From contig CANNZV010002501.1 of NCBI GenBank assembly GCA_947561585.1, positions 62,024 to 126,023 of the forward strand: a stretch of 64,000 nucleotides of DNA, in the 5' to 3' direction. A program made the position numbers and the translations under genes. The notes under the pieces were generated by a model that worked only from the letters and a program-made list of their open reading frames with translations, did no database searches and was not told where the DNA came from. Of this stretch, positions 17,213 to 64,000 are shown piece by piece. The stretch comes from Caprella mutica (Eukaryota; Arthropoda; Malacostraca; Amphipoda; Caprellidae). Numbering within the stretch: the stretch's first letter is position 1; each line of letters begins with the position of its first letter.

Positions 17213-18310
17213 TAGAATAACTATATTATTTGAATAACTATATTATTGGAATAATTATATTATTTGAATAACTATATTATTGGAATAACTATATTATTTG
17301 AATAACTATATCATTTGAATAACTATATTATTGGAATAAATATATTATTTGAATAACTATATTATTTGAATAACTATATTATTTGAATAACTATATATTT
17401 GGAATAACTATATTATTGGAATAACTATATTATTTGAATAACTATATTATTGGAATAACTATATTATTGGAATAACTATATTATTGAAATAACTATATTA
17501 TTTGAATAACTATATTACTTGAATAACTATATTATTTGAATAACTATATTATTTGAATGACTATATTATTTGAATAACTATATTATTTGAATAACTATAT
17601 TATTTGAATAACTATATTATTTGAATAACTATATTATTTGAATAACTATATTATTTGAATAACTATATTATTTGAATAACTATATCATTTGAATAACTAT
17701 ATTATTTGAATAACTGTATTATTTGAATGACTATATTATTTGAATAACTATATTATTTGAAAACTATATTATTTGAATAACTATATTATTTGAATGACTA
17801 TATTATTTGAATAACTATATTATTTGAAAACTATATTATTTGAATAACTATATTATTGGAATAACTATATTATTTGAATAACTATATTATTTGAATAACT
17901 ATATTATTTGAATAACTATATTATTTGAATAACTATATCATTTGAATAACTATATTATTTGAATGACTATATTATTTGAATAACTATATTATTTGAATAA
18001 CTATATTATTTGAATAACTATATTATTTGAATGACTATATTATTTGAATAACTATATTATTTGAAAACTATATTATTTGAATAACTATATTATTGGAATA
18101 ACTATATTATTTGAATAACTATATTATTTGAATAACTATATTATTTGAATAACTATATTATTTGAATAACTATGTTATTTGAATAACTATATCATTTGAA
18201 TAACTATATTATTTGAATGACTATATTATTTGAATAACTATATTATTTGAATAAACATATTATTTGAATAACTATATTATTTGAATAACTATATTATTTG
18301 AATATCTATT
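17213..18310. repeat. 17-bp minisatellite
   Basis: About 64 tandem copies of TATTATTTGAATAACTA with variants (TTGGA for TTTGA, GACTA for AACTA, a 1-bp-shorter TTGAAAACTA). Blocks of variants repeat in the same order, for example near 17750, 17825 and 18060, which suggests segmental duplication inside the array. Confidence 0.97.
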
Positions 18311-31800: not shown

Positions 31801-31879
31801 GCTCAACCAAAATGTAGAGGCAGATTGAACACAGGACATCATCTTCTGATAATTTGGAAACTGTGTTTGACTTGGACAT
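28658..31879 (-). CDS. RNF168: RNF168-type E3 ubiquitin-protein ligase (RING, MIU1, MIU2, LRM)
   Basis: A five-exon gene encoding about 573 residues; human RNF168 has 571. In order: N-terminal C3HC4 RING (CSICLYILVEPVRMPCNHCL to CPVCRRR), a basic/helical linker, a MIU1 ubiquitin-binding helix (DQEAADEKMARELQESL), a long Ser/Lys-rich disordered region, MIU2 (DQKLALQLERQFKK), then an LR motif (GSGEEYGLRSS) just after it. The MIU2-LRM pair is the UDM2 module that reads ubiquitylated histones in RNF168 and RNF169; the retained MIU1 favours RNF168. The family role is H2A ubiquitylation at DNA breaks in the nucleus. All splice phases agree. One frameshift lies in exon 3 (29400-29450), and the intron after exon 4 starts with GC. 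A 5' UTR intron probably ends just upstream of the ATG. Confidence 0.88.
29024..29131 (-). CDS. RNF168: RNF168-type gene, coding exon 4 (MIU2), GC donor
   Basis: It encodes VSSLIAEQKAIAEKLKQESE and then DQKLALQLERQFKKYK, the MIU2 helix. 108 bp, phase 0 at both ends. The donor is AAG|GCAAGT, a strong match to GC-AG introns. Reading through instead would give ASC and a stop, losing the LR motif. Confidence 0.85.
29320..30362 (-). CDS. RNF168: RNF168-type gene, coding exon 3 (MIU1 and disordered region), with frameshift
   Basis: It starts right after TTTTTTCAG with LDQEAADEKMARELQESL, the MIU1 helix. Then follow Ser/Thr-rich, acidic and Lys-rich tracts. The frame from 30362 would end in a stop at 29352. 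A second frame, open from about 29440, reads NKRKRKSGELSTNASTED and runs cleanly to the donor GATAAC|GTGAGA at 29320 in the phase needed by exon 4. The switch must lie between about 29400 and 29450. One extra base would restore it; this may be an assembly error or a real lesion. Confidence 0.82.
30548..30767 (-). CDS. RNF168: RNF168-type gene, coding exon 2 (post-RING linker)
   Basis: The exon encodes IGTFVRKAEKTGTLVDHKFW and a charged helical stretch to KMKDQSV. It matches the conserved region after the RING in RNF168 (an Arg/Thr-rich segment, then LV....W..I). It completes the split Arg codon and ends in phase 0 at GTG|GTAAGT. Confidence 0.85.
30768..31706 (-). other. RNF168-type gene intron 1
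   Basis: 939-bp GT-AG intron. It holds a 396-bp hAT-type element at 30855-31250 and otherwise AT-rich sequence. Confidence 0.8.
30855..31250. mobile_element. hAT-type miniature element with GGTATCGGTAT repeats
   Basis: It starts TAGGGATGGGACAAAGTATC and ends GGTATCATCCAATCTCTA. The flanks ATATGAAG (30847-30854) and ATATGAAA (31251-31258) agree in 7 of 8, as expected for an old hAT duplication. The interior is made of many GGTATCGGTAT motifs. It lies within intron 1 of the RNF168-type gene. Confidence 0.8.
31707..31879 (-). CDS. RNF168: RNF168-type gene, coding exon 1 (RING finger)
   Basis: The start ATG is at 31879, 12 bases after an acceptor-like AATGCAG, so a 5' UTR intron is likely. It encodes MSKSNTVSKLSEDDVLC and the RING up to the last CPVCRRR. 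Donor GCAG|GTGAGG; two bases of an Arg codon carry over. Confidence 0.88.
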
Positions 31880-33574
31880 TGTGAGATTACCTGCATTGGG
31901 AATATTGGAAAAAATAAATAAATTGTATAACATCTATCTATTCTATCACAGGGGATAGAATAGTGAAATCTGAATAATAAATTATATGCATAACACAATT
32001 ATATTTACATTACTATTTATTATCCCTTCACAACCTGAATGAATTTTCAAAAGTTGAAATATTATATAAACTACTTCTAATGTTAATAGTAAGTGACAAA
32101 TAGCTGTAATTATATAGCTAAGTAGGTAGGTGCTAATTTTTATATTTAATGAAAAAATATCAACAAGTTCACATTCGTTCACTCGAACAGACTCCACACA
32201 TTTCTTAGACATTAAATTATTAATCTGTACCAATCAGATTAAAATTACCTTCAAGACTTAACCCTAGTAACTTAGCCCTTACAAGTTTGCTCAGTAACCT
32301 AGCAACTGGCATGCACACACCAGTCCTAACTATAACTTGAAAAATCTTAAGGCTCATTAACTCTTCAGATTTCTACAAAATGCTTAATTTATCATAAATT
32401 CTCTACAAAATAACATTGTAGCATAGGAGAAAAATAGATATTTCTTGCCATTTGCAATTGAAGGGCCCAAAATAATTGTCCTAAACATGCTATATTACCT
32501 GGACAAGAATATTATTTTCAAAGGGGAAAAATTCCACCGACAAGTCGGTGCAATTTACCATGAAATACAGTTTGATCCAAAATGTCCAAAATTCTCTAAA
32601 ATGTCTCCGATAATAACATGTTAACATTGGAATTAATTAGGAATTTGTCTCCAAGATCTTCATCTTACAAAGATATTTTGAGTAACATACGGGAAGAAGA
32701 TGCGAACGCCACATGCGACTCACAGGAGGTTTCTCCTATGGGTCACGTTTTTTTTTTAATATTTCTATCTTTATCGTAATTCTTGATAATTTGACATTAA
32801 CAGTAGTTTAAAGAAGCCATTTTAAGACATTTTTAAGGAATTCCATTTGTTGTGAAAACTATTCGTTTTTGAGATGTAGCGCAATCAATTTTCCGATAGG
32901 TTAGGTTATGACCGTTATGTTTGGTGGTCTGGAAAGGTACATTTGCTGTTTATTTCAGATATAAAAACAAAAATACGTATAAAGGGAGGCGTGCCGCCCC
33001 CTGAACCCCATAGACAGGTCATTAAACAATCATGAAGTGTGCAGTACAACAAACTACTGGATACAGTGAACTATATTAACAGTTTCATATCACAAAAATC
33101 TAAAAGATTTATGTATCTTGAAGTGTGCATTTTAATATTATACCATGAGAATACTATTAGAATAGGCTAATCACACTCAAATTATATAAGAGTGACCCAC
33201 AGGTTGCGACCACGTACGGTTCTCATGAGTATAGTGTGACCCACAGGTTACGACTACGTACGGGTCTCATGTGTATTAAATGAGTAATCTAGTCATTTGA
33301 ATAGAGTTCAAGTGTTGATTTATAATCTTGAAGTGTGCATTTTAATATATACCATGAGAATACTATTAGAATACGCTAATCACACTCAAATAATATAAAT
33401 GTGGCCCGCAGGTGGCGACCACGTACCGTTCACATTAACTAGTCTAAAATAATAATATGCTCACTTCTACATTAAATATATTACTATTGTTGAGTGATAG
33501 GAAGTAAACAAAATTGCAAAAATTAAAGAAAACTTTGTTATCTCAAGGAAATGTGATCCACACGAGAAACCTCC
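31880..33574. other. non-coding region upstream of the RNF168-type gene
   Basis: 32985-33080 belongs to a dispersed repeat also seen near 40690-40800 (inverted) and 53280-53380. 33117-33200 and 33327-33410 are a local direct duplication. 33183-33260 holds a pair of GTGACCCACAGGTT units. The promoter must be in here or upstream, but no core element is clear. Confidence 0.5.
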
Positions 33575-34783: not shown

Positions 34784-37700
34784 CTTTGAAAACATGTCTT
34801 CAAATAAGTTACAGGGGATTGTTCCCCTAGACGGAAATAATTACCCTACATGGAGGATACAAATGAAGATATATCTCTTACGAGAGAAACTGATGGATTT
34901 TGCGGATGGATCTAAACCAGTTCCAATTGATTCAGCTTCAACTGAGGCGAAGAATGCCTATGCTAATAATTATAATAAGGCTCTGGCAGATATAGTACTA
35001 TCTATTTCACCGGATCAATTGTACTTAGTTGGACAACCGACGGACCCTTCAAGAAACGTTTCAGAAAAACACGTGGGCTAACAAATTTCGTCTGAAGAAA
35101 AAGCTCTACAATCTAAAATTGAAGTCTCCTGAACTACTCGACTTTCATTTGAAGGAACTAACTGAAGTTTTTCAAGAGCTTGCCTTGTTAAATCAAGTGA
35201 TCAGTGAAGAGGATAAAGTGATTTGTCTTCTGTCATCTCTACCAGGGCCGTTTGAAGTGCTTGTCACTGCACTTGAAGCTCAGACAGACATCCCTAACTG
35301 GATTACCGTAGCTGACACACTCCGGAGAGAAGCTGAAAAGTTGAGTATTAAAACCAATAATGCATTAACATTATAAAATACTCAGAATTATGCTGGAGTA
35401 AACAAACAGTCCATCATTTGCCATTTCTGCAATAAGATGGGACACCTGAAAAAAGACTGCTTTAAATTTAAAAGGTCTTCTCAAACTAACAGAACTAAAA
35501 ACCAGCCAAATGTTGTAAATGTAAGTCATATAGAACTAAATCACACAATGTATGCTAATGATATCGCTCTTTGTAACAAATATGCCGACAGTAATATTTG
35601 GATAATAGATTCAGGCTCTTCATCACACATGAGTGGTGATAAAAATTTATGTAAAGATTTTGCAAATATTAGCAAACCTATCAATGTTAAAGTAGGAAAT
35701 GGAGATGTCTTACAAGCTATTTCACTAGGAAATGTTTCAATTATTGTGAATATACCAGGTGGTGGAAGTAGAATATGTAAAATAAATGATGTACTATATG
35801 TGCCAAATCTAGCTTTTATCTACTATCAGTGTCTAAAATGACAAGTAATAATAAATCTATTACTTTTGAAGATGATAAATGTAAAATTTTGAACGAAAAT
35901 AAAGAGTTAATGGCTTAGGCTAACTGTGTTGGTAAACTCTATTATCTTAATACTTAAGTTCATAAAGCTGCAGTAACTGTAGATCAAAATGAAGTAAACT
36001 TTCTATGGCACAGAAGGCTCGGTCATATAGGTAAAGATAACTTGACTAAAATGATCCGAACTAAATCAGTAAATGGTCTGGATAGTAAATTAAAAGCTAT
36101 AGAAGGCGTGTGTGAACACTGCTGTAATGGGAAAATGCATAAAATACCTTTTTCTACAAGCATTAAGAAAAATTGTAAACCTCTTGATTTAATCCACACC
36201 GATGTCTGTGGGAAAATTACTCCCATTTCAAGGGGTAATAATTCATATTTTCTGACCTTTATTGATCATGCTACTCGATACTCCTGGATATATGTTATTG
36301 CACATAAGAGTGATGTGTTTCAGAAGTTTTTGGAATGGAAAGCTATGGTTGAAAATATTTATGAAAGGAAAATTAAAACCTTGCAGTCAGATAATGGAGG
36401 AGAATATACCTCAAATAAGTTTGAATCATATTTACGAAATGAAGGTATAATTCACCAGAAATCCATTCCTAAAACTCCTGAACAAAATGGGTTAGCTGAA
36501 AGATTTAATAGAACTATTATGGAAAAAGTTAGATGTATGTTATCTGATTCAGGAATTGATAACGAATTCTGGGGTGAAGCACTATATACTGCAAATTATC
36601 TAAATAATAGATGCATTAATTCATTTTTAGCAAATAAAACTCCATATGAAGCTTTAAATCTTAGAAAACCCAACATCGGCCATATAAAAGTTTTTGGATG
36701 CACAGGGTACGCACATATTTCTCGAGAGGAAAGATCAAAGTTAGAAAATAAAGCTACCAAATGTCTGTTTATTGGCTATGGCACAGTTACTAAAGGGTAT
36801 AAGATGTATGATGTTGAATCTAAAAGAATCTTCTTTTCCAGGAATGTAACCTTTGATGAATCAATTTCATCTAAGATTGAGAGCCCTCAACTGAGTGAGA
36901 CTCCTACCTCTCCACTGGTGTTCCATTCAGAAGATTCAGAACCTGCTGGACCTGAGAATCAACCTCCTGACGATAACCCTCCAATAATCCTCCCTGAGGC
37001 GCAACCTGTACCAGCTATCAGCCCTAATGAGGATCCTAGACGATCGTCTAGAATTCGTCGAGCTCCTATTAGATATGGTAGTTGGGAGTATGATCATGTT
37101 GAGGAGGAGAAGGAGGGTTTATTAGTCAATGGGAATATCAATATCGAACCTAGGTCGGTATCTGAGGCTCTTAATAGCGGTTCTGAATCCTCTAAATGGA
37201 AACATGCCATAGAGAGGGAATTAAATGCTTTTGAGAAACATAAAGTTTTTGAACTCGTAAAACCTACCTCAGATTTAAATATAATTAAATCTAAATGGGT
37301 GTTTAAAAGAAAAAAGGGATCTGATGGTAGAGTGGTTTCATATAAAGCTAGATTAGTCGCTCAGGGTTTTTACAGAGACCTGGAATCGACTATGATGAAT
37401 TTTTTGCTCCTGTAGTGAGATTTGAATCGGTGCGAACCATGTTATCTTTAGCAGCTAACCAAAAATTATTTGTACATCACTTGGATGTCAATTCTGCTTT
37501 TTTGAATGGGGATCTTAAAGAAAATGTTTATATTAGACAGCCTCCTGGCTATGCTATTCCAGGAAAAGAAGATTTAGTATGTAAACTTAATAAATCTATG
37601 TATGAATTAAAACAATCACCCAAATGTTGGAATGATGCGTTGGATGCATATCTTAAATCCTTAGGCTTTATTCAGTCCTCTTGTGACTCTTGTATATATG

Positions 37701-43097: not shown

Positions 43098-44370
43098 TCC
43101 ATGGATAAGAGACCTACACAGTCAGTCTGCCTACCCATGGAATGAGAGACCTACACAGTCAGTCTGCTTACCCATGAATAAGAGACCTACACAGTCAGTC
43201 TGCTTACCCATGGATAAGAGACCTACACAGGCAGTCTGCTTACCCATGAATAAGAGACCTACACAGTCAGTCTGCTTACCCATGGATAAGAGACCTACAC
43301 AGTCAGTCTGCTTACCCATGGATAAGAGACCTACACAGTCAGTCTGCTTACCCATGGATAAGAGACCTACACAGTCAGTCTGTTTACCCATGGATAAGAG
43401 ACCTACACAGTCAGTCTGCTTACCCATGGATAAGAGACCTACACAGTCAGTCTGCTTACCCATGAATAAGAGACCTACACAGTCAGTCTGCTTACCCATG
43501 GATAAGAGACCTACACAGTCAGTCTGCTTACTCATGGATAAGAGACCTACACAGTCAGTCTGCTTACCCATGGATAAGAGACCTACACAGTCAGTCTGCT
43601 TAACCATGGATAAGAGACCTACACAGTCAGTCTGCTTACCCATGGATAAGAGACCTACACAGTCAGTCTGCTTACCCATGAATAAGAGACCTACACAGTC
43701 AGTCTGCTTACCCATGGATAAGAGACCTACACAGTCAGTCTGCTTACCCATGGATAAGAGACCTACACAGTCAGTCTGCTTACCCATGGATAAGAGACCT
43801 ACACAGTCAGTCTGCTTACCCATGGATAAGAGACCTACACAGTCAGTCTGCTTACCCATGGATAAGAGACCTACACAGTCAGTCTGCTTACCCATGGATA
43901 AGAGACCTACACAGTCAGTCTGCTTACCGATGAATAAGAGACCTACACAGTCAGTCTGCTTACCCATGGATAAGAGACCTACACAGTCAGTCTGCTTACC
44001 CATGAATAAGAGACCTACACAGTCAGTCTGCTTACCCATGGATAAGAGACCTACACAGTCAGTCTGCTTACCCATGAATAAGAGACCTAAACACTCAGTC
44101 TGCTTACCCATGGATAAGAGACCTACACACTCAGTCTTCTTATGCATGGATAAGAGACCTACACACTCAGTCTTCTTACCCATGGATAAGAGACCTACAC
44201 ACTCAGTCTTCTTATGCATGGATAAGAGACCTACACACTCAGTCTTCTTATGCATGGATAAGAGAACTACACACTCAGTCTTCTTATGCATGGATAAGAG
44301 AACTACACACTCAGTCTTCTTATGCATGGATAAGAAACATACACACTCAGTCTACCTATCCATGGATATA
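43098..44370. repeat. 36-bp minisatellite, open on both strands
   Basis: About 35 copies of a 36-bp unit containing CCCATGGATAAGAGACCTAC and then ACAGTCAGTCTGCTTA. Because 36 is a multiple of 3 and the unit lacks stops, it opens 448 codons on plus (12-residue repeat MDKRPTQSVCLP) and 398 on minus. Copies from 44090 on change together (CACTCAGTCTTCTTATGCAT). I regard it as non-coding. Confidence 0.95.
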
Positions 44371-44699: not shown

Positions 44700-47600
44700 T
44701 TATATGGAGTTTCGCATGTTAAGTTGGTGTAGGTATTGTATTAGAGCTGTAATATTGGGAGAGAAATCGTTCTCACCAATCATCTGTTTCAGAGTCAGGG
44801 CAGAGTCATTGTTGTTCCGGGTTTGTGAGAATAGTCTATTTCTTAGATCTTGGTGTGAGGGGCATTCTGCAAGTAGATGTTTTACTGTGAGGGGGACAAT
44901 GCAGTCCTCACAGTATGGAGGGGGTCTGTGTTCCATGTGATGACCATGGGAGAAAAGGGTGTGCTAAGTGTGACCAATTCTTAGACGGCATAGTGTTGTT
45001 TCTGTGTTTCTGTTTCTGTATGTGCACAACTTCCATAGCTTTGTATTATCCTTAACTTGTCTCAGTTTGTTGTTTCCAATACCCCGCCACTCTATCTCCC
45101 ATTTCTGGGAAATGGTAATTCTGATTATTGGAAAGAAGTCTTTGTAGAAAGTTTTGGGGTTCCGGACTCTATCCCCTCCATCTGCTTTTTGGCGGGCAAC
45201 CCGGTCTGCCTCCTCGTTCCCATCCACTCCCACGTGGCTTGGGACCCAACAGAAACTTAATCTTCTTCCATGATTAACAGTTATCATAATAACATATGCC
45301 ATAATCTCACATATGATAGGGTGGCTACTATTGAAGGCCTGTATAGACATGATGGCACTCTGCGAGTCAGAGAAGATTACAGATCTTGCTACATCTGCCT
45401 CACTCACCAGCCTCACAGCCTTCAACAGGGCCATCAGTTCCGCAGTGAAGATACTTGAATGTATCGACAGTTTTTGTCCATAGTTTCTGTTATTGGTGTG
45501 GACACCGTATCCCACCCCATTTTCGGTTTTGGATCCGTCAGTGAATATTTGGAGAGTATTGCTATGGTCATGTCTTACGTGGTCTATGAACATATTCTTC
45601 AAGACATTTGGAGGAGTTCGCCCTTTATTTGGTGGATCGAAGCCACTACATACAACATCCGGGACCAACCAGATTTTGTCATTCATATTTGTGGCTTCAA
45701 TGATATCCAGGTTAGGGAAGTTCATAGCTGTCTCAATGAAAGTATTAATTCGATCACAGTATGTTTTAGTATCTGATTTTCTATTGGGAGTATCAACTTC
45801 ACGGGGAATAGGTTCAATTATGTTATGGTTAATATTTTGTTTACATCTGACGTAGTATTGTAGAGCAAGTTGAATGCGTCTATAGTAAAGACTTGGTTCG
45901 CTGCTTTCAGCGTATAGACTCTGTATTGGAGATGATTTAAAAGCACCTATACAGAGTCTAATACCTGCATTGTGGACTGGATCGACTTTCTTCAATACAT
46001 GATCGCTGGCTGTCCAGTAAATGAAACAGCCATAATCAAGTTTAGATCTGATTAGGGATCTATAAAGTCTCAATAAGGTGGTGCGCTCACCACCATATTT
46101 TGTTCTGGAGAGACTTTACAAAATATCTAGAGATTTGAGTGCTGTGGTTTTAATGCTCATTATATGTTCCTTCCATCTTAATCTTTCGTCCAGAATGAGG
46201 CCAAGATATCTTACAGAGGTTTTAAATAAAATAGGTCTATTATATAGAGTGAGTGAAGGTTCTTGTTGCAGACCACGTTTTCGATGAAAGTGTACTGCAA
46301 TAGTCTTCTGTTGTGAAAAACGAAAGCCATGTTTGTTTACCCATGTTTCTATTTTGGAAATGGCTGATTGAAGACGTCGTTCAATTGAAGGAATATGGTG
46401 GGATGAGCTGTAAATGACTAAGTCATCTACGTAGAGCATGCCTTTCACATACTGTGGAAGGTTTTGCAGAATTTTATTTATAGCAACAATGAAAAGAGAG
46501 CAGCTTAAAACGCTCCCTTGTGGTACTCCTTGTTCTTGATTATGATAGTCTGAATAATTATTTCCTATTCTTGTTTTGAATTTTCTTTCAGAAAAGAAAT
46601 TTTCAATAAACCATGCAAGGGGGCCTCTTAATCCAGCCTCATGTAACGACCTAAGAATACCGTATCGCCACGTGGTATCGTAAGCTTTCTCAAGATCAAA
46701 GAATACCGCCACCGTGCTGTCTTTTCGGGAGAAGGAGTCCATTATATCAGTTTGGATTTTAAGAAGGTTGTCTGTTGTTGACCTGCATCTTCTGAAGCCA
46801 AACTGTAGATCTGACAGTACGCGTTTACTTTCAAGGGTCCGAACGAGTCTTATATTGACAGCTCTCTCGAACATTTTACATATTGAGCTGGTTAGAGCTA
46901 TTGGTCTATAGCTAGTCAACTGTGTTGGGTCCTTACCAGGCTTCAGAAAGGAAAGAACAACCGCGTTCCTCCAAGCTGTAGGAAAGCTCCCCTCTTGCCA
47001 GGCTGAATTTATCAAGTTTATCAGCTCGTCGAGGCAGGATGGGTGAAGGTGTCTTAGCATTGAGTAGGTAATGAGATCCTCTCCTGGTGCTGAATCAGTA
47101 CAAGATCTCAGGGCTCTTGTTATTTCACCTTTGGTGAAAGGGGCGTTGTAGTCTTCTATCATACTGGGGGTGAAATCAAGGCGTTTTTGTTCTTCTGCTG
47201 TTCTGGTTCTATTAAAGTGATCGGAATAGTTGGTACTACTACTCACTTTTGAATAATGTTGTGCTAGGAGATGGCTAACTTGTTGGGAATTTGAGATTAA
47301 TTGGTTATTAATTTTGAGGCACGGTGGATGGTTTGATGGATATTTCCCAGAGATCTTGCGTATTCTAGACCAGATTTTGGACATAGGTGTATTCACATTT
47401 ATAGTGGATATGTAATCCTTCCATGAATCTTTCCTTATTTTCTTAATAGTTTTTTGAGCCTTAGCGCGTGCTCTGTGATACAGAATTTTATCAGCATTTA
47501 GTTGAGTTCTCTGATATCTACGGAGAGCTCGTTTCCGTTCTGAGCACAACTGAGTGCACTCGAGTGTCCACCATGGTACAGGGCTGGAGATTGTTCCTAT

Positions 47601-48425
47601 GCCACATTTTGGAATCGAATGGTTTGCTGCATTTCGAATATGATCGATTAATTTACTATAGCGTTGATCAACAGGTAGTTGACTGTTATTTTCAAAATAG
47701 GCAGTATTCCTTTGGAATTCTGACCATCTCGTTCGTTTTGTATTGAATTGTATTGGCCTTGTAGAGTTTCCGTTGTTGTTTATTGGTTCAATCATAATTG
47801 GATAATGGTCCCTACCATAGAGGTCATCAACAGTCCTCCATGTGTAGCTAATTGTGATGTCTGGTGTGCATAGTGAAAGATCTACTGCATGTAGGGTGCA
47901 GGTTTGTGAGTGGAAGTGGGTTTGGGATCCATCATTCAATATTGATATATTATTTTCAGTTATGAAATTTTCTACAGTTGTTCCTCTTCGGTCAGTGTTG
48001 TCATCTCCCCAGAGAGGGTGTTTGGAATTGAAATCTCCTAGTAGGATGTAAGGTTCAGGGAGCTGTTGGATTAGCATATCGAGGGAGTTTCTATTTAAAT
48101 TTTGTTGAGGGCTGACATATATATTACAAATAGTTACAAGTTCACCAAGATTGACTTGGATTGCATGGGCCTGCAGGTTGGTTCTGATATGTAGTGGGTT
48201 ATACGCAGTACTTGAGCTCACGAGGAAGGCCAGACCCTGCCCAGGTACCGCCTCAGCAGCCACAGGGCACGATATAAAAGAGTACCCCGTGGGAGGCTTT
48301 GGATTGCGGTTTCCAAGCATGGTCTCCTGTAAGCACACACATATGGGTGCTTCTACTGATAGGAGTTTTCTGAGGTCTTCATATTTTCTGAAATATCCGC
48401 ATATATTCCATTGGAGAATAGACAT
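44700..48425 (-). pseudogene. LINE ORF2 (endonuclease, reverse transcriptase, RNase H), two stops
   Basis: 1241 codons in one frame. Endonuclease: MSILQWNICGYF, LQET, LLGDFNSKHPLWG, GRDHYPI. Reverse transcriptase: FLKPGKDPTQLTSYRPIALT, FFDLEKAYDTTW, GVPQGSVLSCSLF, and catalytic YVDDLVIYSSS. RNase H: IFTDGSKTENGVGYG, AELMALLKAV, SDSQSAIMSI and WVPSHVGVDGNEEAD. Near the C-terminus is a CEDC...HLLAECP zinc motif. In-frame stops: TAA at 46116-46118 and TAG at 44964-44966. Confidence 0.93.
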
Positions 48426-48430
48426 TATAC

Positions 48431-49855
48431 TTAGGTGCAGCGTGCATCATTCATTTGTTTGGTATTTGATTTACTTGGAAGATTCTGAGGAATATTGAGT
48501 GTGATAGGGTATTGATTGGCTTTTACGTTTCGTTTAGTGGCTCGTTCGTCATCTGGGTCTAGTTCATCATTATGACGTCTAGAGTCACTCAAAGATCTTA
48601 TTCTCTTGAGGTTGTTTTTCGGAGATTGGTCTATCAGATTTAGTCGGCCTCTGTTAGGCTGCTCTATTGTTGTTTCATATTGATCAGATGGTTTTCTTCT
48701 ATATTCAGGATTTGTTTGGTAATAAACAGGTTTTGAACTGCTTGGAGTTTCATTTAGATTATTGCTTGCCTTTGGATGTGCTGGAGCCTTCTCCTGAGTG
48801 GAAGGTGTTGGTTTATTGGGTTGAGATTGGTTGATAGAGGTACTTGTATTTCTATTCTTTTCATTTGAATTTTGTTGTGTCGAGTTTTGGGTACTGGCTA
48901 TTACAGCTTGTTTGTAGCTCATATTTGGATTTATGGATCTACTATTTATTTCACGTTTAGCTTCAGCATATGTAATATGGTTATTTGCTTTAAGCGCTTG
49001 GATTTCTTGTTCTTTTATTTACACTGGACATTTACGGTGGAAGGAAGGGTGACTTCCACTGCAGTTTGAGCATTTTGGATCGCTTTGACAACTTTCATCA
49101 TGTTTAGGTTCAGAACAAATTGCACAGATTTCCATATCAGCTCTACATTTTATAGAGCTGTGGCCATAGCGCTGGCATTTAAAGCATCGTCTTGGTCTGG
49201 GGATATATAATCTTACTTGGCAGCTGGTCCAGCCAATATTTATTCTTGGGGGCAGTCTGGTTGAATTGAAAGTTAGAAGAATATATATCGGAGTATTTTC
49301 AACAGCTTTGGTCTGAGGGTTTCTTCTTGTAGTCTGGTATATGTTTGTAACGCCTTGTGACGTCAAAGTTCTTTTTAGTTTATCAATCGAGTATCCAGGA
49401 TGGTTTTCATACCGTATGGTTCCCTGGGTCTGATTAAGTTTATCATCCTTACGACATATTACCCCTACGCCCGCCAAGGATTTCAGGGTTACTAGTTTCT
49501 TAGCTTGTTCATCTGTATCCACGACTATAGTAAGGCTACCATCTTTTCTTTCATTTATTTTCCTCGGTTCTCCGTTCAATAAGGTCTTTATTTCTTGAAA
49601 AGCTGCAATAGTATCAATTGTCGATAAATTTTCTTGGTTCTTTCCTTCAATTAAGAAGAACTTATCTGTTCTGTTTCCAGAAAAAAGATTATTAAAGTTT
49701 TCTCTAGTGTTACTCGTATTTTCATAGTTAGTATTCTTTTCCTTATTTCGAACAGATACATTTCTGTTATTAGTCTTTGGTCTAACTGAGGGTTCAGTGA
49801 TATCTTCATTTAATAATTCAGAGCCTTTGATATATTTCCTTGAGGAAGAATCCAT
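48431..49855 (-). pseudogene. LINE ORF1 (Gag-like, CCHC zinc knuckles), one stop
   Basis: 475 codons. The central region has VGVICRKDDK and NIGWTSCQVRLYIPRPRRC. It is followed by three zinc knuckles (CFKCQRYGHSSIKC, CAICSEPKHDESC, CSNCSGSHPSFHRKC), which bind RNA in this family. An in-frame TAA at 49019-49021 follows CPV; beyond it the frame continues with IKEQEIQALKANNHITYAEA, the usual continuation after the knuckles, then a Ser/Asn/Pro-rich tail. ORF1 ends 5 bp before the ORF2 ATG, which suggests reinitiation or coupled translation. Confidence 0.9.
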
Positions 49856-51168: not shown

Positions 51169-54100
51169 CTGGAAAAAGAGGCACAAGAGAAATGAGATTT
51201 CAACGGAAAATAGTTAGTAAAATATTCGTACTTTAGGGAGTAGCTATACATATGTATATTACACACAGCTAAATACATTTATACATTTGAAAACGAGTAA
51301 CTATGATCTCTATAATACAACAGTACCGTTTACAAACTATGATCTCTATGATACAACAGTACCGTTTACAAACTATGATCTCTATGATACAACAGTACCG
51401 TTTTCAAACTATGATCTCTATGATACAACAGTACCGTTTACAAACTATGATCTCTACAATACAACAGTACCGTTTTCAAACTATGATCTCTATGATACAA
51501 CAGTACCGTTTTCAAACTATGATCTCTATGATACAACAGTACCGTTTACAAACTATGATCTCTATGATACAACAGTACCGTTTTCAAACTATGATCTCTA
51601 TAATCACAGTAACTCACTGAGGAAATGCCAGGCCAAGAATCTGAGTGACAGCATTCTGTTTCGTGGCAGTTGGAAGAGGTGTACCGTGTCTATGAGTTGT
51701 GAAGATGGAACCACCATGTTAATCACTCTGAGGAAACAACAAATAGTTAGTAGCTACTTTAACTGTTCTGAAAACTTATTTCTGAAAGGAGCTACTGAAA
51801 AAATAGTTATATATATAAAAGTCCAAGCCACCCAATTACCATACTTATTTTTATAACTAACTTTAATCGATACTTGAACATAATTCCATATGAAATATTT
51901 TAGACCAAAAAAAATAATCAAAATATATTTCCAAGAGGAAGAATATCCTTAAAATAAAGAAAGATATATGCCAGAAGGCAATATTTGAAAGCTATAACTA
52001 AGATGACATAGCTAATCATATAGCTAACTAGTTTCAAAAATTTACTTTAAAGATATGGCTGCTGATAAAATTGGAAAGGATAAAAATATTCGACATAAGT
52101 AGCTAGAATATTGGAGTTAACATTCATCAAACTCGATTCAGAAGACTAATAATTATAAGTCACACAAGAGAAAAAGTAGATAGAATTAGAAATTCATAAG
52201 AATTTGTGTTGCTAAATGAATAGCTAGGGAGGTAATCTTTAGTTCTCGCTGTTCAAAATCCTAAATAACTACCTACAATGCAAGTAAAATATCATCTCAT
52301 TTCCACAGACCCATAGTATGCCTTACCTAAAATCATTCTTTAGTCCATGTCCCACAAACTTGACGCCCTGGTCCACGAGGTAGCGCAGCTTGACGTAAGT
52401 CGATTTGAGTTGTGTGAGATGTTTCTGAGAGTAGTTCGCGTCCAGATCTCCAGGGTTGATGCCAGAGAACTTAGTGAGGTAGTCCACCACCTGTTCCGGG
52501 GTGTTGATGTAATCATCCATAAAAGGGGTCTCCATTGCATCTCCTTGCCTGGGGAACAACGACAAAATACTCAGTCTGAAGTTTGGACTTTCACGTAGAT
52601 ACTCAGTCTTAAGTTATGAACTTTCTTTTCTTCAAAGCTAATGGAATATTAAATGCAATTAAATCACAATGAGATACCAAATCTATTCCCTAAAATATTT
52701 AATAAGAGCGGGGTGTGCCTTTAGCTATACCAATGATTACTTCCTCTTTCCAATCTCTCCCTCTCCTTCTAATTCAGGTAATTCTCTCTCTCTCTCTCCA
52801 ATCTTACCCTCTGATGCAGGTTATTCTCGCCACACTCTTGTGCGATGGCTTCACAGTAGAGCGAGTGCCGTCACTCCTAATCTCCGCCTCTTCTTTCTTC
52901 AAGTTGACAAACTCTGCGTCCATGGCCACGATATCATCTGAGGGACAGGAAAAACACTAATAGAGAACAAAGTCCTTATATTATACTACATTATTCTATT
53001 AAAATAAAATGTTTTATATAGAAAAGGATCTTCAATTATTAAAGTAAATCAGAATAGTATTTTTGTAGCTACTTGATTCTCAGATGTGTTTAGTGGTACT
53101 AAAATAGACTTCTTATGGGTGGCACCTCTCAGGTTAGAATCTCTGAGGTTACTACCAGTCTACCACTGAAAATATAGTTTTAAAAATATTGTTACTTGCG
53201 GATAAGTTTTTTAGGATAATGTGTTTTTAGCATAAGGTTACTAAGTCACTAATTGGCTATGAAGATTGGACAAAAGTGCATATAGGGGCGTGTCGGCCGC
53301 CGAACCTAATAGCCTACTAGGTCATTATAAAATCATAAGTGTGCATTACAACAAACTAGCAGATAAAGAAAACTACATTACAGCCATCTATAATGTTTCA
53401 AAGTTTTTTTTATTCCAAAAGTAATTTTATTCAACTCATAACTAAATGCAAGGAGGAGGAGCCAACAGGGGGCAGAACACTAACGGTTTAGTGCTACGCC
53501 CCCTGTTGGCTCTTCCTACTCCTTGTCGACAAATCAGAGAAGAATTAACCTTAAAAACATATTTGCAAAACTGTATCATGAAAAACTTAATTTAGTAGGG
53601 GTTTAACGTCTGCTTCGGAACCAAAGGCCATATCACTGACGTCAAAAGGAAATTAAATACAAGGAACTAGAAGAAGCAGTCAGAAAGAAAAGTGGCTCCA
53701 TGAACAAAGTCACTTACCACCGTCGGTGACAATGCTCATGGATGCAGAAAAGCTACTCCGTGAATACAGTCACTTACCAAGGAATGTGACGAAACGGGAC
53801 AAGCACCGGTGGCTGCACTCACGGATGGAAGAGGGAAATGAAGAGGTGATAGTAAATGAAGCCTACGAGCCTACCTAACACAAAAATCTAAGACTTCGTA
53901 GTTGTAGAGCATATTCCTAGCGCTATCCTCTAAAACTGCAAGTAGCGTTACAAAAATGATAAACATGGTAAAAATGAAAATAGATAATCCATAATCCAAA
54001 TTACAACAGTTTGGGGCCCAAGGGACGCCACCCCCTTCTCTTCCATTCACCACAGACAGCTTCAGGATAGAGCCCCTGGGGGCCATGAGAAACTTATGCG

Positions 54101-57100
54101 GTAGAGACAATATCTCAAAAACCTTATGCGCGGTTTACTATATTTTTAAAATTTTAAACGGAAGAAACGTAACATTTTTGGGCACACAGGTTTTAATTCT
54201 AATAAAAGAGCGAATTGAAATTAGTCATTAATGTTATATATGTTTATTTATTTAGATAGATATTATTTATGTTTTTAACAATCCATTTTCAGGCGATGCT
54301 CTTTAAAATATATATTGATACTTGTATATAATAGAAATTTATAGCGTATTAGAATTTATTAAGATTTATCAGATTATATTTAACCTATACTTCCTTCCAA
54401 TTACGTTATTACAATATAAAAAAAATCTACTTCAACTATACTGTAAATAAGTGTTACTGATATTAAATTAGCGAGAAACCTTGGAGAATTTCCTCAATCG
54501 TTAGTTTCTTTTCATTGTTAGCTCTATATAGATAAGTAGCTAGAGCTATAGTTGAAACCCGGTTCTGATAAACGTTCTTTTTATGTGAGCAATAGTTAAT
54601 AGGCAACTACCTACAAACGAAATAATCTACTAATTGAGTGTAAGAAGGTCTTTTAAGGGAATGGTTTCCGGTATTTTCCATTTTTTTCGTTTTTTTTTTT
54701 TTAATTTAGTTACCCTGCAAATCTACCAAAGAAAACTCATAAAAAATTCCATTCACCTAGTACGTTTGTACGTGTGTCAAACGCGCTTCTCAGTTTGGGG
54801 GTTAGGGAGTTATTCTCTTATAGAGAGTGGGTTTCACCCACTAACAATCTCTGTGCGCGCTCGTTTTGCTCTTCAGTTATAGCTGAAGAGTCCCAGTCTT
54901 CTTGGCTGGGACGAAAAGCATATAGTTTTTTTTTAAATTTAAAAAATTTATTGAAAAATATTTTTCTTCCTCCATTATCTCAGTACCATTTTTTCTCAAA
55001 TTCTCCACGTTCAAAAGTATAGAACTTTTTGGGGGTTGGTGCTACAGAAAAATGTATAAGAGCTAATATGTTCAGACCGAAATTCCTAAGGTCGTGGTGA
55101 AGCCCTTTTCCTATAACTTTTTCTATAAACTTAATTTTTTTTGAAAAACAAAAAAAAATAAAATAAAATATGACAATTTTTTTTAAAATTCAAATAAAAT
55201 TTTTTTCAGATAGAAATTCAAAAAAAAAGCTGCACCACGACCTTAGGATAGTAGTAGAGAACATATTAGCTTCAATAAATTTTTCTGTAGCACCAACCCC
55301 CAAGCCGTTCTATAGTTTCCCGGGGGGGGGGGTCGAAAAAGAAGGTTTTTCGACCCCCACGGGGGAGGGGGGCCCCAAAATGAAAAAATCTCAAAAGAGA
55401 GCATATGATTTCTTTTCACTTTACACCTTATGTTATAATCTCAGCTCAATCGGACAAGTATTATTGGTACATCCTAAATACCGGAAACCATCCCCTTAAT
55501 TTGAAGTAATGAACGAGGTGAAGAAGTGTGTGGCGTTTGGAGTAAGTTGAAGTTCACTTTTCGCTTGGAACAATCATTTCATTCCAGGCAACTTTGATTT
55601 GTGATTAGTAAATAATGTTTAAATCTATTGGGTTGCTTCCCAAACCTGTTTCTCACCTTTGCCTGGTATCTCGTGCTCATCCAGAGGCACGAAGGTGAAC
55701 GGCTTTGCTGTGCTGAAGTTGCTCTTCATCAGCCAACTCCTGTCGATGGGGTTGACTGGCTGCAGTTGCTCCAACTGTTGGGGCAGCTTGCGCCGTGTCC
55801 AGTAGAGCACACAGGGCACCTTCCACTCAGGGAACCAAAGAGCCTCTGCTACGTTGATTGGCGTGATGCTGAAAAAGAAAAAAAATTAGGGAGAATGAAA
55901 CACTAATAATATTTAATGATAAAAAAAATAAGTCACCAGATATCGTTGAAGAGGTACCAGTACTCACCTGATGTCATTGAAGAGGTACCAGTACTCACCT
56001 TATGTCGTTGAAGAGGTACCAGTACTCACTTGATGTCGTTGAAGAGGTATCAGTACTCACCTTATGTCATTGAAGAGGTACAAGTACTCACCTGATGTCA
56101 TTGAAGAGGTACCAGTACTCACCTGATGTCATTGAAGAGGTACCAGTACTCACCTGATGTCATTGAAGAGGTACCAGTACTCACCTGATGTCATTGAAGA
56201 GGTACCAGTACTCACCTGATGTCATTGAAGAGGTACCAGTACTCACCTGATGTCATTGAAGAGGTACCAGTACTCACCTGATGTCATTGAAGAGGTACCA
56301 GTACTCACCTGATGTCATTGAAGAGGTACCAGTACTCACCTGATGTCATTGAAGAGGTACCAGTACTCACCTGATGTCATTGAAGAGGTACCAGTACTCA
56401 CCTGATGTCATTGAAGAGGTACCAGTACTCACCTGATGTCATTGAAGAGGTACCAGTACTCACCTGATGTCATTGAAGAGGTACCAGTACTCACCTGATG
56501 TCATTGAAGAGGTACCAGTACTCACCTGATGTCATTGAAGAGGTACCAGTACTCACTTGATGTCATTGAAGAGGTACCAGTACTCACCTGATGTCATTGA
56601 AGAGGTACCAGTACTCACCTGATGTCATTGAAGAGGTACCAGTACTCACCTGATGTCATTGAAGAGGTACCAGTGCTCCACAGGGCTGACACCAGCTTTC
56701 TCATGGTACATTGCCCCTACTTTGATGGTAGCAACCAGATTGTTTTTCTCGGGATGGTTAGGGTCAGAAATGAGAGACACAGCTCCTGTCAGATCGTAAA
56801 TCACGCCATCTTCTTCAGAGTCTTCTACTTCACTCACCTTTAAAATGAATAGAGGAATTAGTACATTATTAAGTCAATAAAATTCAAAGGTTCATTTCGG
56901 TTGATAACAAATTAACAATACACAATTCATGTGTCTGTTAATGTTAGACAATGCCATTATCTTTCTAATAGAAATGGAACAATACAATGATAAACTGAAG
57001 CAGATCCATATTCCACCTACAGGTCCTAAACCAACCACTCTCCTTCCCCCCATCAACCACACCCTTACCTTGTCCACACCCTTACCTTGTCCACACCCTT

Positions 57101-60100
57101 AACTTCTCCACACAAACCTCCACCCACTCCCCCCTTACCTTATCCAGGGGTATATCAGAGAAGTGAATGTGTCCCTCTTCGTCTAGTTTGGCTCTCATTG
57201 CCAGGGGTAACCAGGAGTGACTCATTGCAGTCAGGAGGTAGGATAACGCATCGCTAGACCCGTCTGAAAGAGAGGAGAGCAGCCTATATGGAAGGAACAT
57301 TAACCTACATGGGGAAAACATTAACCTACATGGGGAAAACATTAACCTTCATGGGGAAAACATTAACCTTCATGGGGAAAACATTAACCTACATGGGAAA
57401 ACATTAACCTACATGGGGAAGACATTAACCTACATGGGGAAAACCTTAACCTACATGGGGAAAACCTTAACCTACATGGGGAAAACATTATCCTACATGG
57501 GGAAAACATTATCCTACATGGGGAAAACATTAACCTACATGGGGAAAACATTAACCTACATGGGGAAAACATTAACCTACATGGGGAAAACATTAACCTA
57601 CATGAGGAAAACATTAACCTACATGGGGAAAACATTATCCTACATGGGGAAAACATTATCCTACATGGGGAAAACATTAACCTACATGGGGAAAACATTA
57701 TCCTACATGGGGAAAACATTAACCTACATGAGGAAAACATTAACCTACATGAGGAAAACATTAACCTACATGGGGAAAACATTATCCTACATGGGGAAAA
57801 CATTAACCTACATGGGGAAAACATTATCCTACATGGGGAAAACATTAACCTACATGGGGAAAACATTAACCTACATGGGGAAAACATTATCCTACATGGG
57901 GAAGACATTATCCTACATGGGGAAAACATTATCCTACATGGGGAAAACATTAACCTACATGGGGAAAACATTATCCTACATGGGGAAAACATTAACCTAC
58001 ATGAGGAAAACATTAACCTACATGAGGAAAACATTAACCTACATGGGGAAAACATTATCCTACATGGGGAAAACATTAACCTACATGGGGAAAACATTAT
58101 CCTACATGGGGAAAACATTAACCTACATGGGGAAAACATTAACCTACATGGGGAAAACATTAACCTACATGAGGAAAACAAAACCTACATGGGGAAAACA
58201 AAACCTACATGGGGAAAACAAAACCTACATGGGGAAAACAAAACCTACATGGGGAAAACAAAACCTACATGGGGAAAACATTAACCTACATGGAGACTGG
58301 ACAGCATTAACTTACAAAAGACTGGACTTACTTACCTACAACCATTGTCATCTCATATCATTACATAGCTACAGTAACGTGCTAAAAGTGTTGCTATAGC
58401 TCCTCACCTTGTGGCTGACTGGCAGATCCTCCATTTCTGTTGGAGTGCCAGAATTTGCAGTCCGGTCTGGTGCATGCGTTCTTGTAGCGACATGGACGCA
58501 CCGTGAGGGGGGCATTCAGAGGGAACCCGAACTCATTGTCATCAGCAGGGTCATCCACCATCTTCTCTGGGGGAGCTATGAAACTGTTCAGCAGGAACCT
58601 CTGTTGGTCTCTCCAGTGGTTCAGGGCCTGGAACAATCATATAGTAAGTAAAGGAGGAAGGAAAACAATAAACTGATAAAATGAAATGATTGAGGCCATT
58701 TAATAAATTTACTATTTGATTCGGAACCAAATGTCACTTTGCTGAAGTTTTAAAGAAATTAAATACAAGGGACCGGAAGAAACAGTCGGAAGTTACTTGC
58801 ATTATATTTCCCAAGAATATGCAACTATAGGTAGTTTGACAGTGTACCTGACACTCATATCACCTATCTGCCCCACCTGTTCATTGTCAAGGCCAGTGTT
58901 CACCACGAGAGTGTTGGGGAGACTGTTGAATGTTCTGGTGTTCTGCTGCAGAGAGTATTTCTTGCACTGGTTGCACCAGCACTGAGTGGTCACTGCCTTG
59001 CACAGGGACGCCTCCAGCACTTTGCTGAAATCGATTTGAGAAGTGTTCAGCTCGCTGTACAACTCTGAAAACAAACAAAAGCAAGGAATTAGTCAGCAAC
59101 TAGATGACGAGCACTCATAGAGCACATAGCTAACTTTGTTGCCCTTTAAAAATAACCTTGACCCTTAACCTGTTCGCTAGCAAAATCTAATAAACTGGTT
59201 CCTGGACATTGATCAACTGTCCCACTAAATTTCAAGGAATTTGGTTGAAGACTTTTTAAGTAATGAGAGTAACAAAATGACAATTATATAAATGTGGCCT
59301 AAAATATAACATTCCGCAATCTGCGAAGGTAATGAAGGCACAATACAAGGATAGACTTGTATGTGGCACATAATTAAAACATAGCTACCACTTAAATTTC
59401 ACTTAACTTGTTTTGAACTTTAATTCTGATTGCTTTGTATAAAACTGAAAAGGCTAGAATTCTAGTTAGCTACCAAATAACTAAGATTTAATTTTAAAAC
59501 AGAATCCAGGAAAATGCTAAGAAAAAGGCAACAACCATTTGAGAACACAAATAAGATGCATTTTTGTTTTTAAAATCGTGCAAAGAAAAGATATGGTAGC
59601 TACTGTTGTTTAAACTGTAAAGTGGTAGGTGTTCCATTTCGGTCAGAGTTATACTTTCCTCATGAGTGTGCTTGTAATAAAAGTATTATATCAATTCATT
59701 GGTTCTAGGAAATTTCGGTTTGGGAAAATTCGGTATTGGTTTATAATGGAGTTATTTAAGAACAACAATTGAGAAAGTTAAAATTGTGAGTACTAAAATG
59801 CGTAGTGTATTTCTTAAAAGCGGATAACATCATTAACTGTTGTAAAATGATACGTAACATTAGTAATTTTGACATTTATTCAACATGAGATTTGAGCGGA
59901 GAATTCGGTCTCGGGTATACATAAAACTAACTTATGAATTAGATGTACCTACCATGGGGCTCTTATCATATAGTCGTTGAGTCAAATGTTCGGTTTATTA
60001 GCATACAATCATGTTAAAATGACTCTTTTCTCCGATAGTAGCTAAGATAGCATAACTACACAGTTTTATCCCACCTGGAATTATCTCATTGAGGTTCTGA

Positions 60101-63100
60101 AGGTGAATTTTTTAACTTTAAATGTTCGGTTTATTTGTAAAACAAAGTTCTCTGAGAGTATAATAGCATATATCACAGAGTTTTTCTCACCTGGCATTAT
60201 CTCATTGAGGTTCAGCACGTGAATGACTGCCTTAGAGTCTTTCTTCTCGTCAGTGTCACAGCGACTGCAGCGCAACCTCTGCTCAATGTCAAACCCAAAC
60301 AACTCGTCAATGGGGTTGGGAATGAGAGTAGGGGTGGTGTCAGCAGAGCCTGTAATAGACAGAGTGGCAATCAACATCTCACAAGTTATGAAGGTGAACT
60401 CTTTTCAACAATTTGTACAAAGATTGAAAATATTTCCAATAATTTATAATCAGATTGAATAATTTGGTAAATATTATTATATAGTTTAAATAATCTGACG
60501 AGTTTCTTTGAAGTAGCTAAATAAATTGATAGAACAGTTTAATTAGATAGTTCAAGTAGCTATTGCATCTAAAATAAAGATTTACTTGAAAGTGACAAGT
60601 TAATGCATTAAAATACTGAATATAGCTAATAGAGGCAGTCTGTAGTTAATATTGTACTATCTCTCTCTCTCGTGGATGTTTGATATATAGTCATTCATCT
60701 ATCAGTAGCCTGTTTGAAATAAAGTCATGAATAAACTACCAAAAACATCAATGTTGGTCTAGTATCGACTTGTATTATAATGTATATTTGAATAAATGAA
60801 TAGTATAATAAAATGACTATGTAGCTCAGACATTATTTTTTACAATATAATTTGTTTGTTTGTTATTTCTTGACACACCTTCATTTGCAGAGGCAGCTAT
60901 CTCTGCTTTTTCTTTGATGTCAGCCTGCAGTTCTGTCTTCACTTGCGTTAGGATGAACAGATTCCAACTCTGAGGAAACGAAGAGAATAACATCATCATA
61001 CAACTCTAAATGAAAGTATTGGTGCTATGAATCACCATGAAACTATTCATTCAACATTACCATAACTAGAATTAACTATTCTGATTAGGAAGATTTGAAA
61101 TAGATTCACCTAAGGATAAATACTATCTTATCTTAGCACCTAGGTGCACAGTACCATTATCTTAGTACCTAGGTGCACAGTACCATTATCTTAGTACCTA
61201 GGTGCACAGTACCTTTATCTTAGTACCTAGGTGCACAGTACCATTATCTTAGTACCTAGGTGCACAGTACCATTATCTTAGTACCTAGGTGCACAGTACC
61301 ATTATCTTAGCACCTAGGTGCACAGTACCATTATCTTAGTACCTAGGTGCACAGTAACATTATCTTAGTACCTAGGTGCACAGTACCATTACCCAGAGCT
61401 ATAACTTGTAATTCAGAATATAACTTTATAATTTGTACTAAGTTATATAACTTCATGATCTTAGTGCCTAGGTGCACAGTACCATTATCTTAGCACCTAG
61501 GTGCACAGTACCATTATCTTAGTACCTAGGTGCACAGTACCATTATCTTAGTGCCTAGGTGCACAGTACCATTATCTTAGCACCTAGGTGCACAGTACCA
61601 TTATCTTAGTACCTAGGTGCACAGTAACATTATCTTAGTACCTAGGTGCACAGTACCATTATCTTAGTGCCTAGGTGCACAGTACCATTATCTTAGCACC
61701 TAGGTGCACAGTACCATTATCTTAGTGCCTAGGTGCACAGTACCATTATCTTAGTGCCTAGGTGCACAGTACCATTATCTTAGTGCCTAGGTGCACAGTA
61801 CCATTATCTTAGTGCCTAGGTGCACAGTACCATTATCTTAGTGCCTAGGTGCACAGTAGCTCTGCTCTCAGCGTCAGGTAGGGTCAGCCCCATGGCAGAC
61901 ACCTCGGGTATGGTCCTGAAAGCTCGCAAGAAGTTGGAGGAGCTGCAGGGCATGCCTGTAAAGTTACACAAATGAGTACTTTGGACTTCTTCAATCAGTA
62001 GATTATAATCAGATAGATGGGTACCATTTCTGACAACTAACCAAGAGAACATTTTATGGCAAAATGAATTGACGAGTGAATATGGTAGACCCTATCTAGC
62101 ATTAGTGAGTAAAGGGTCTGTAGTTCAATAGAAACTTTAGCTACTTGCAAATAATCTTGGGTAGCTAAGTTAAATTAATGGTAAGCAAAGGGTCTAAGAA
62201 AGTTGTAGCTAAGTAGATCTCCTTTATCAGATATGATAAAAATTAGCATAATATTGGATCAGTTCTTTAAGCAGCTACCCTATTGCCCATAAATATGTTA
62301 ACTAGAACTAAGAGGAATAGCTACTTAATAACTACTCTAGCTGCAATATATACCCCACCCCCCACTACATTAGTACAGGATAGGGTTAATAAGCCCCAAG
62401 GCAGGCAGTTACCTTGGTGGTCCGCTCCCCCTGAACCACTGATGTCTATCATGTGGAACAGGAAGCCCAGCTCACAAGAGAGGCAGTATTCTCTGGAGCA
62501 GAGATGGGACAGGAGGATGGCGCGCAGGGGAGCTATGAAGTAGAACATCTGGGGAGTAGGAGGAGGTGAAACAATAGTAAATAAATAGAGAGGTATGTTA
62601 AGTTTCAATTTCAGTGACGGTGAACTTGATCCATTCTTCATAAACGATGTAAACAAATGAGTACAGTCCAATACTTCAAGTATTATTAGTTGAATATTAT
62701 GAATGAATTGGGTGTTAAATGTTATAGCTAAACAAAATTTTATTTAAGTAAATTTTCATAGAAAGGATTTACCTTTACAGTAGTATATTTCTTATTTAAA
62801 AACAAATATAGCTATACTCTGAGTGACGTCACAGAGTATTTTACGATATAGCTAGTAGCTACCAATATTGTACTCAGTATACTTCTCTATTTACTTACTA
62901 GCTTATGGGTAAAACTAGGTAGCTATGGTGAAGCGATCAGACTAGATGTATTAGTGAACATGCAATCGTAACGAGGTTCGTCAATGAGTCACCACCACAC
63001 TCACCTGAATCATAGGGTTGCAATATGAGTTGGGCAGAGATGAGTCCAAACCAACACAGTTAGTCCTGTTGTAGAAGTCGAAATCAAAGTCATCCATACC

Positions 63101-63559: not shown

Positions 63560-64000
63560 CTGATGGTAAAAAAAAAACATTGTTAGACAATACGGTTAGT
63601 TACAATGATAATCTAATGTCAATATTGATAAACACCCATTTAAAAAGTAGTATAAGCCTATAAGTAGCTATCGGGATATTTCAATTAGCTACTAAAGCTC
63701 ATTAGATAATGTTGAATTTTTAAAAATTGTCGCAGATAAAATTGCAGAAAGATTTAATGATGTTAGTCTCATAAAATACTCCCATTACAAATTAAAAATA
63801 AGTGAGCTACACATTTAAAAATCAAGGGAAGTATAACCCAGACATCCTAAAATGAGCTGAACTATTTCTTTGAGTATCAAATTTAAAACAACTGAGGGTA
63901 GTTTACGTAATAGTTTCGAATTATCACTCGTGCAATTGACTTGCACAAACTCACCACTACTTGACTTAGCTACATCAACTCACCACTACTTGACTTGCAT

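Follow-up and report, generated by a model that had tools for sequence, protein, structure and literature searches.

A donor-spanning 31-bp array in the PAN2 gene of Caprella mutica, with a probable origin as a minisatellite seeded at the splice site

The intron that follows exon E10 of the PAN2 gene in Caprella mutica begins with 23 tandem copies of a 31-bp unit, each consisting of the donor hexamer GTGAGT and 25 bases of the preceding exon. The intron offers 24 GT sites, 23 of which read GTGAGT while the last reads GTGACT. We explain this arrangement, with a probability of about 0.7, by a duplication at the donor, with a short shared word as its seed and later growth in the manner of an ordinary minisatellite, which was tolerated since the exon-most donor is used. 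The analysis was carried out on a stretch of 64,000 nucleotides of contig CANNZV010002501.1 (C2501), hereafter the window, whose positions are used throughout, and was extended to the whole assembly where indicated.

PAN2, the catalytic deadenylase subunit, occupies the right part of the window on the minus strand, as indicated by matches to PDB chains and to proteins; among the 102 protein matches listed, many of them named PAN2, the best identity was 48-49% and amphioxus did not appear among the sources that carried a name. The joined exon pieces matched chain 9qtu_C, which we take to be human PAN2, with an E value of 1.7e-99, and the pair E10+E11 aligned with this chain without gaps across the junction (WYLFNDI..), confirming the gene and strand assigned in the preliminary description. 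The gene model comprises 15 exons placed within the window and the 14 introns between them, all of GT-AG type. The E7-E8 join does not keep the reading frame, so an exon or a splice site is absent from the model at that point. The features around the array are the following (a slash marks the exon-intron junction):

56650-56837, minus strand: PAN2 exon E10, ending in phase 2, whose last 25 bases recur in the unit as its exonic part
55937-56649, minus strand: the array proper, with the 31-bp unit (GTGAGT followed by 25 exon bases) in 23 tandem copies, which start with donors 1-23
55931-55936, minus strand: donor 24, CTG/GTGACT, weak (U1 duplex -5.1 kcal/mol), followed by the AT-rich remainder of the intron
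55657-55868, minus strand: the next PAN2 exon, E11, joined in frame from donor 1 and not from donors 2, 3, 4 or 24

Exon E10 opens with GTGAGT directly after the acceptor AAAG (AAAG/GTGAGT at 56837), acceptor and donor-like motif touching each other, and ends in ..GGAGCACTGGTACCTCTTCAATGACATCAG, the last 25 bases of which are repeated exactly. A unit-by-unit count on the minus strand, from 56649 down to 55937, returned the 31-bp unit and the 23 extra copies that had been reported; 18 of the 23 are exactly GTGAGTACTGGTACCTCTTCAATGACATCAG, while copies 3, 19, 20, 21 and 23 carry one to three differences each. Tandem Repeats Finder (TRF) described the same array with a 31-bp period, 24.1 copies, 97% matches and a score of 1408 at 55933-56678. 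Since the exact match with the exon spans 25 bases, the division into 23 exonic and 8 intronic bases first proposed is an admissible cut, but 25+6 is equally possible. Likewise, the interval originally given (55938 to 56837) includes the array but also covers the exon up to 56837. With a unit of 10-100 bp, repeated head to tail in a variable number, the array fits the criteria of a minisatellite or VNTR. Copies 4-18 are identical and, with the exception of copy 3, the diverged ones (19-21 and 23) are found towards the exon-distal end, which suggests that growth was recent and took place on the exon side.

The strength of the 24 donors was evaluated from their duplex energy with U1. Nineteen were at -13.6 kcal/mol and two at -12.1, and these 21 near-equal donors, within 1.5 kcal/mol of one another, rank with the strongest of the 14 donors scored in PAN2. 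The preliminary description spoke of 24 equal donors, which holds for these 21, whereas donors 4 and 21 (CAA/GTGAGT, both at -7.1 kcal/mol) and donor 24 (-5.1 kcal/mol) are weaker. Donor strength as the selector of donor 1 is thus unsupported. The same applies to a structural privilege of donor 1: the unpairing probabilities of donors 1-24 were all low and alike (0.0002-0.0077), so local RNA folding does not single it out.

From donor 1 the reading frame continues into E11, while the four later donors that were translated (2, 3, 4 and 24) all give ..NDIR and then TGA, in agreement with the earlier statement that only the first donor keeps the frame and that a TGA comes next. Frequent use of later donors would deprive such transcripts of PAN2 and, as the exon-join sequence at E10 is the same at a second locus presented below, donor 1 is probably used enough, as judged from the intact PAN2 frame.

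The 21 donors at -12.1 to -13.6 kcal/mol and the immediate stops at the four translated donors would also suit a regulatory decoy, in which many donors titrate U1 or divert transcripts to stop-containing isoforms and PAN2 output depends on the length of the array; human IFI6 does make use of downstream donors, according to the accessible text of PMC4526556. We regard this reading as improbable, because the length of the array is not conserved between two loci of one assembly (23 vs 7 copies) and three arrays in one gene look more like a mutational habit than a single switch. Recursive splicing, by which whole GT...CAG units would be removed stepwise, recreating CAG/GTGAGT each time before the final join, appears very unlikely. 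Perfect units do run from GT to CAG and the junction CAG/GTGAGT resembles a ratchet point; however, the 31-nt unit has no long pyrimidine tract and is far below the usual intron size, copies 3 and 20 end in CAA, and the units of a second array of 29 bp end in ATG instead of AG.

A search of the 903-Mb assembly with exon E10 and its donor returned one further locus, on contig C653, with 99% identity over 200 bases; the two loci are 98% identical across the adjoining 1.4 kb. The array on C653 has seven copies; it agrees with the window in the exon tail, in the last copy and in the terminal GTGACT, and differs from it in copies 3-6. The intron after E10 measures 781 bases in the window and 284 at the other locus. 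Matches to myosin are also paired in the assembly (C1840/C2332 and C238/C3351, with exon spacings differing by at most 4 and at most 18 bp, respectively, compared by hand). On the basis of the sequence identity and of the paired myosin loci, the window locus and C653 would represent two haplotypes, both present in the assembly. An assembly artefact, for which the repetitiveness itself could speak and which the preliminary description associated with a true content of one or two copies, is scarcely credible: the second locus has seven copies with matching ends, the two loci differ in copy number with the same end copies, and the last copies are diverged. The copy numbers given by TRF for the window locus and for C653, respectively, include:

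31-bp PAN2 array: 24.1 and 8.1 copies
30- or 28-bp PAN2 array: 15.6 and 42.6 copies
19-bp PAN2 array: 57.7 and 19.6 copies
16-bp PAN2 array: 2.5 and 2.5 copies

In total, the copy number is unequal at the two loci for seven of the nine PAN2 arrays, the exceptions being the 16-bp array and the 25-bp array described below. Of the three readings originally offered (decoy array, regulatory switch and neutral expansion seeded at a splice site), the neutral expansion fits best, because the copy number differs between loci, the other PAN2 arrays behave likewise and folding gives donor 1 no privilege; decoy and switch are less favoured. The two loci also showed other differences: C653 carries an estimated 5.8 kb of extra DNA in the E2-E3 intron, corresponding to window 62413-63005 and including a 45-bp array of five copies, and the E6 donor (window 60191) reads GTGAGA in the window and GTGGGA at C653.

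Two further donor-spanning arrays and several smaller or differently placed repeats were found in PAN2:

61128-61830, minus strand: second donor-spanning array, 29-bp unit, 24.9 copies by TRF (16.2 at C653), made of the tail of exon E4 (61955-61831) and the donor ATG/GTACTG
63973-64000, minus strand: third donor-spanning array (distal end), with a 25-bp unit, GTGAGTTGATGCAGGTCAAGTACCG, mostly outside the window (C2501:126628-125996), 25.4 copies by TRF (25.5 at C653)
60062-60108, minus strand: single copy of the tail of exon E6 (60349-60191) and its donor, the copied donor lying about 116 nt into the intron
57057-57113, minus strand: 17-bp array of 3.4 copies (2.4 at C653) with AAG/GTAAGG, a weak match (14/15) to the end of E9 and its donor at 57139
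51299-51601, minus strand: 36-bp array of 8.4 copies (5.4 at C653), from intron position 17 after exon 51727-51618, with no exon sequence
57296-58293, minus strand: 21-bp array of 47.8 copies (57.7 at C653), 33 nt from an acceptor, a counter-example that is not at a donor

The 29-bp array is interrupted after 13 copies, and reading through from the exon meets a TAG within the first unit. Its donor, ATG/GTACTG, is weak (-4.7 kcal/mol) and was picked for its phase match with the next exon, and it is therefore the least certain donor of the model. The 25-bp array succeeds an exon encoding ..EELMQVKYR and ending in ..SDWPEELMQVKYR; its units consist of GTGAGT and the exon tail, read-through leads to a TGA at once, and both loci contain 23 GTGAGT in the 660-base stretch from the first donor. 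The first copy differs from its own exon at 2 of 23 bases, and exon-to-array gene conversion is neither favoured nor disfavoured.

Donor copying was evaluated in the 14 PAN2 introns by comparing 40 exon and 12 intron bases around each donor with the rest of the intron, using as a control the best of 100 shuffles in two-base blocks. A donor-spanning segment was copied into its own intron, above the best shuffle, in four of the 14 introns (E4, E6, E9 and E10): 40 of 40 bases were recovered for E4, while the scores were 38.5 vs 12.0 for E10, 30.5 vs 14.0 for E6 and, only just, 12.5 vs 11.5 for E9. The same shuffle test detected acceptor-spanning segments copied into the intron in none of the 14. 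Two small donor duplications (E6 and a weak one at E9) stand beside the three donor-spanning arrays. The long arrays (at least five copies) at the window locus are seven, of which three span a donor, two start at intron positions 3 and 17, and two precede an acceptor by 33 and about 80 nt; the exon preceding the 30-bp array has a weak PAN2 match (20 residues, E 0.01). With units of 25-36 bp placed at random, a donor would be spanned 1.9-3.2% of the time (16 introns), which gives a probability near 0.001 for three of seven arrays, by a test devised after the data had been seen.

We then considered the possibility that donors throughout the genome act as mutational hot spots of tandem duplication, through the GTGAG/GTAAG motif or transcription-linked breaks, with PAN2 as one case. 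This possibility, which is compatible with the donor-seeded minisatellite and reaches beyond it, is a real one, although we would not expect it to hold. The excess of PAN2 arrays at donors speaks for it, within the limit of its post hoc test, as do the genome-wide counts of three AGGTRAGT at short distance, with 18,967 matches vs 7,998 for the reversed pattern; however, these matches overlap within arrays, and no recognisable exon was seen at the edges of the three motif arrays inspected by eye. In the chaperonin family, with 58 matches in the assembly, 39 of them in eight host gene regions, self-comparison, which can miss duplications shorter than about 25 nt, found exon-tail duplication at none of the 39 exon matches, which weighs against a general hot spot. 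One 25-bp array of 44 copies in a chaperonin region starts 11 nt into the intron. Another array, recorded as a candidate donor array, lies upstream of a chaperonin-like frame at C856:86589-90734; its units of 31 bp (TRF, 36.9 copies) open with GTGAGT.

As for myosin, 99 exon matches were obtained and 20 plus-strand ends were chosen before their sequence was seen. One of the 20 (C1789) has an array of about 60 bp spanning the exon tail ..DYHYLRQ and the donor CAG/GTAGGG, with a TAG in the first unit, and at a second end (C493) a 16-bp array begins about 11 nt into the intron. The other 18 windows were free of arrays according to TRF, and some of them may miss the donor as HMM ends are not always exon ends. 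Both arrays found in these windows thus sit at a donor, as a hot spot would predict, but these windows were drawn around the ends of exons and contain little beyond them. That such arrays occur in every gene was rejected on the grounds of the 0/39 chaperonin matches, the 18/20 empty myosin windows and the near-constant spacing of the C1840/C2332 pair (at most 4 bp, by hand). In all four donor-spanning arrays, three in PAN2 and one in myosin, read-through hits a stop inside the first unit. Donor-seeded arrays therefore recur in this genome; PAN2 is rich in them and they are rarer elsewhere.

Returning to the donor-seeded minisatellite, its origin may be reconstructed from the present sequence. 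In a short tandem duplication, the donor hexamer would have been joined to an exonic site some 25 bases away from the boundary; GAG is read on either side of this junction (exon ..GGAG-C-ACTGG, intron GTGAG-T-ACTGG), and the product would have been exon tail, donor, exon tail and donor in a row. The point in the exon at which the repeat starts reads GAG, as does the donor GTGAG, in both E10 and the 25-bp array, and at E4 both sides of the duplication read TACTGTGCACC; these matching short words fit a duplication between them across the boundary, and such seeding is probable. The array would subsequently have grown and shrunk like any minisatellite, to the present 23 and 7 copies. The spliceosome would use the exon-most donor, yielding the full-length protein, while use of a later donor would place a stop right after the exon and the RNA would be lost through nonsense-mediated decay; the array would be tolerated because the exon-most donor is used. 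A duplication on the donor side would leave donor 1 and the exon intact. An extra AG upstream of an acceptor is normally used first, and a duplication on the acceptor side would thus provide an upstream AG that shifts the frame, which may explain the 0/14 in PAN2.

Some observations count against this explanation, as two of the seven long PAN2 arrays are near an acceptor, the 25-bp and 16-bp arrays have equal copy numbers at both loci, none of the 39 chaperonin exon matches had a duplicated tail and 18 of the 20 myosin windows had no array. The acceptor side is not barred in general, since BflGb6 of amphioxus has an acceptor-side case (accessible text of PMC3087553). In human genes SRSF1 favours intron-proximal donors (accessible text of PMC5585400), which would disfavour donor 1, and in IFI6 downstream repeat donors are used, against an exclusive use of donor 1 (PMC4526556, accessible text). 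The wider proposal that donors in this genome are preferred birthplaces of minisatellites, donor-side arrays being common and acceptor-side ones purged, and that the exon-most of dozens of donors is chosen by position alone, is tentative and we hold it doubtful.

The PAN2 array belongs to a described class of repeats, known but rare, which is unusually dense in this one gene. One study reportedly described intron gain through tandem duplication of AGGT segments; the PAN2 case resembles it in the tandem duplication of a segment holding AG/GT and differs in that the repeat accounts neither for the whole of the intron nor for the acceptor used, although the ungapped protein alignment across the E10-E11 join would also be allowed by a gained intron. 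In human IFI6 (6-16, G1P3) the minisatellite unit is of 12 bp and keeps the frame, and its multiple splice donors were reportedly the subject of an original paper by Turri in 1995. PAN2 shares with IFI6 a minisatellite at an exon end whose units carry donors, known in PAN2 from the sequence, but its unit is of 31 bp and the four translated later donors lead to TGA at once instead of keeping the frame. Two downstream repeat units of IFI6 serve as donors, giving three mRNA species (accessible text of PMC4526556).

Boundary repeats are known in amphioxus as "mirages" in Adh3, the globins BflGb6 and BflGb9, troponin C and PGBD5, according to the accessible portions of PMC3087553 and PMC3902484. 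BflGb6 has six and three units on two haplotypes, and Adh3 data and globin RT-PCR suggest undisturbed splicing (PMC3087553), as is also reported in PMC3902484, within the same portions. Like these mirages, the PAN2 array repeats exonic and intronic bases (25 and 6, in 23 copies), its copies carry splice signals and its length differs between the inferred haplotypes (23 vs 7). Unlike amphioxus, where both sides are affected, no acceptor-side case occurs in the 14 PAN2 introns, and PAN2 has up to 23 short-unit copies and three such arrays in one gene. Variable repeats also occur at the exon-intron boundaries of human genes in segmental duplications, where they are said to give rise to novel introns (accessible text of PMC2812944), whereas the PAN2 copies enlarge an intron that joins conserved exons.

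These arrays extend the boundary repeats, known from amphioxus and human, to a further animal lineage, and suggest a reason for which duplications might not survive equally on the donor and the acceptor side. Engineered constructs with two sites are the usual means of studying how one of several equal 5' splice sites lying close together is chosen. In PAN2 three arrays occur naturally, each with about two dozen donors and with copies that share their exon context. Both the 31-bp and the 29-bp array are present in the assembly as a longer and a shorter version, and in both the first donor leads to protein and read-through to a stop in the first unit, making them a good natural test of positional donor choice. 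If donors were indeed preferred birthplaces of minisatellites, the genome would be a large natural experiment on the choice of the exon-most donor.

Finally, other features of the window and of the assembly were recorded. A 15-bp array of about 282 copies lies at the window edge (1-4174), and further arrays have units of 17 bp (65 copies, 17215-18309), 32 bp (14 copies, 22748-23195) and 36 bp (35 copies, 43099-44368). A piece of a Copia-like polyprotein (GAG-pre-integrase, integrase, SH3-like domain and the start of RVT_2) is found on the plus strand at 35958-37412, and a non-LTR retrotransposon frame with endonuclease and reverse transcriptase on the minus strand at 46122-48446. A RING-finger exon (31706-31933, minus strand) and a nearby serine-rich frame with no Pfam match (29358-30371, minus strand) together presumably resemble RNF168. 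The assembly also contains 14 uninterrupted full-length GroEL-like genes and one partial gene (contigs C1, C2, C3, C13 and others), which represent bacterial DNA; the GC content was 0.63-0.64 at the two C1 loci checked.
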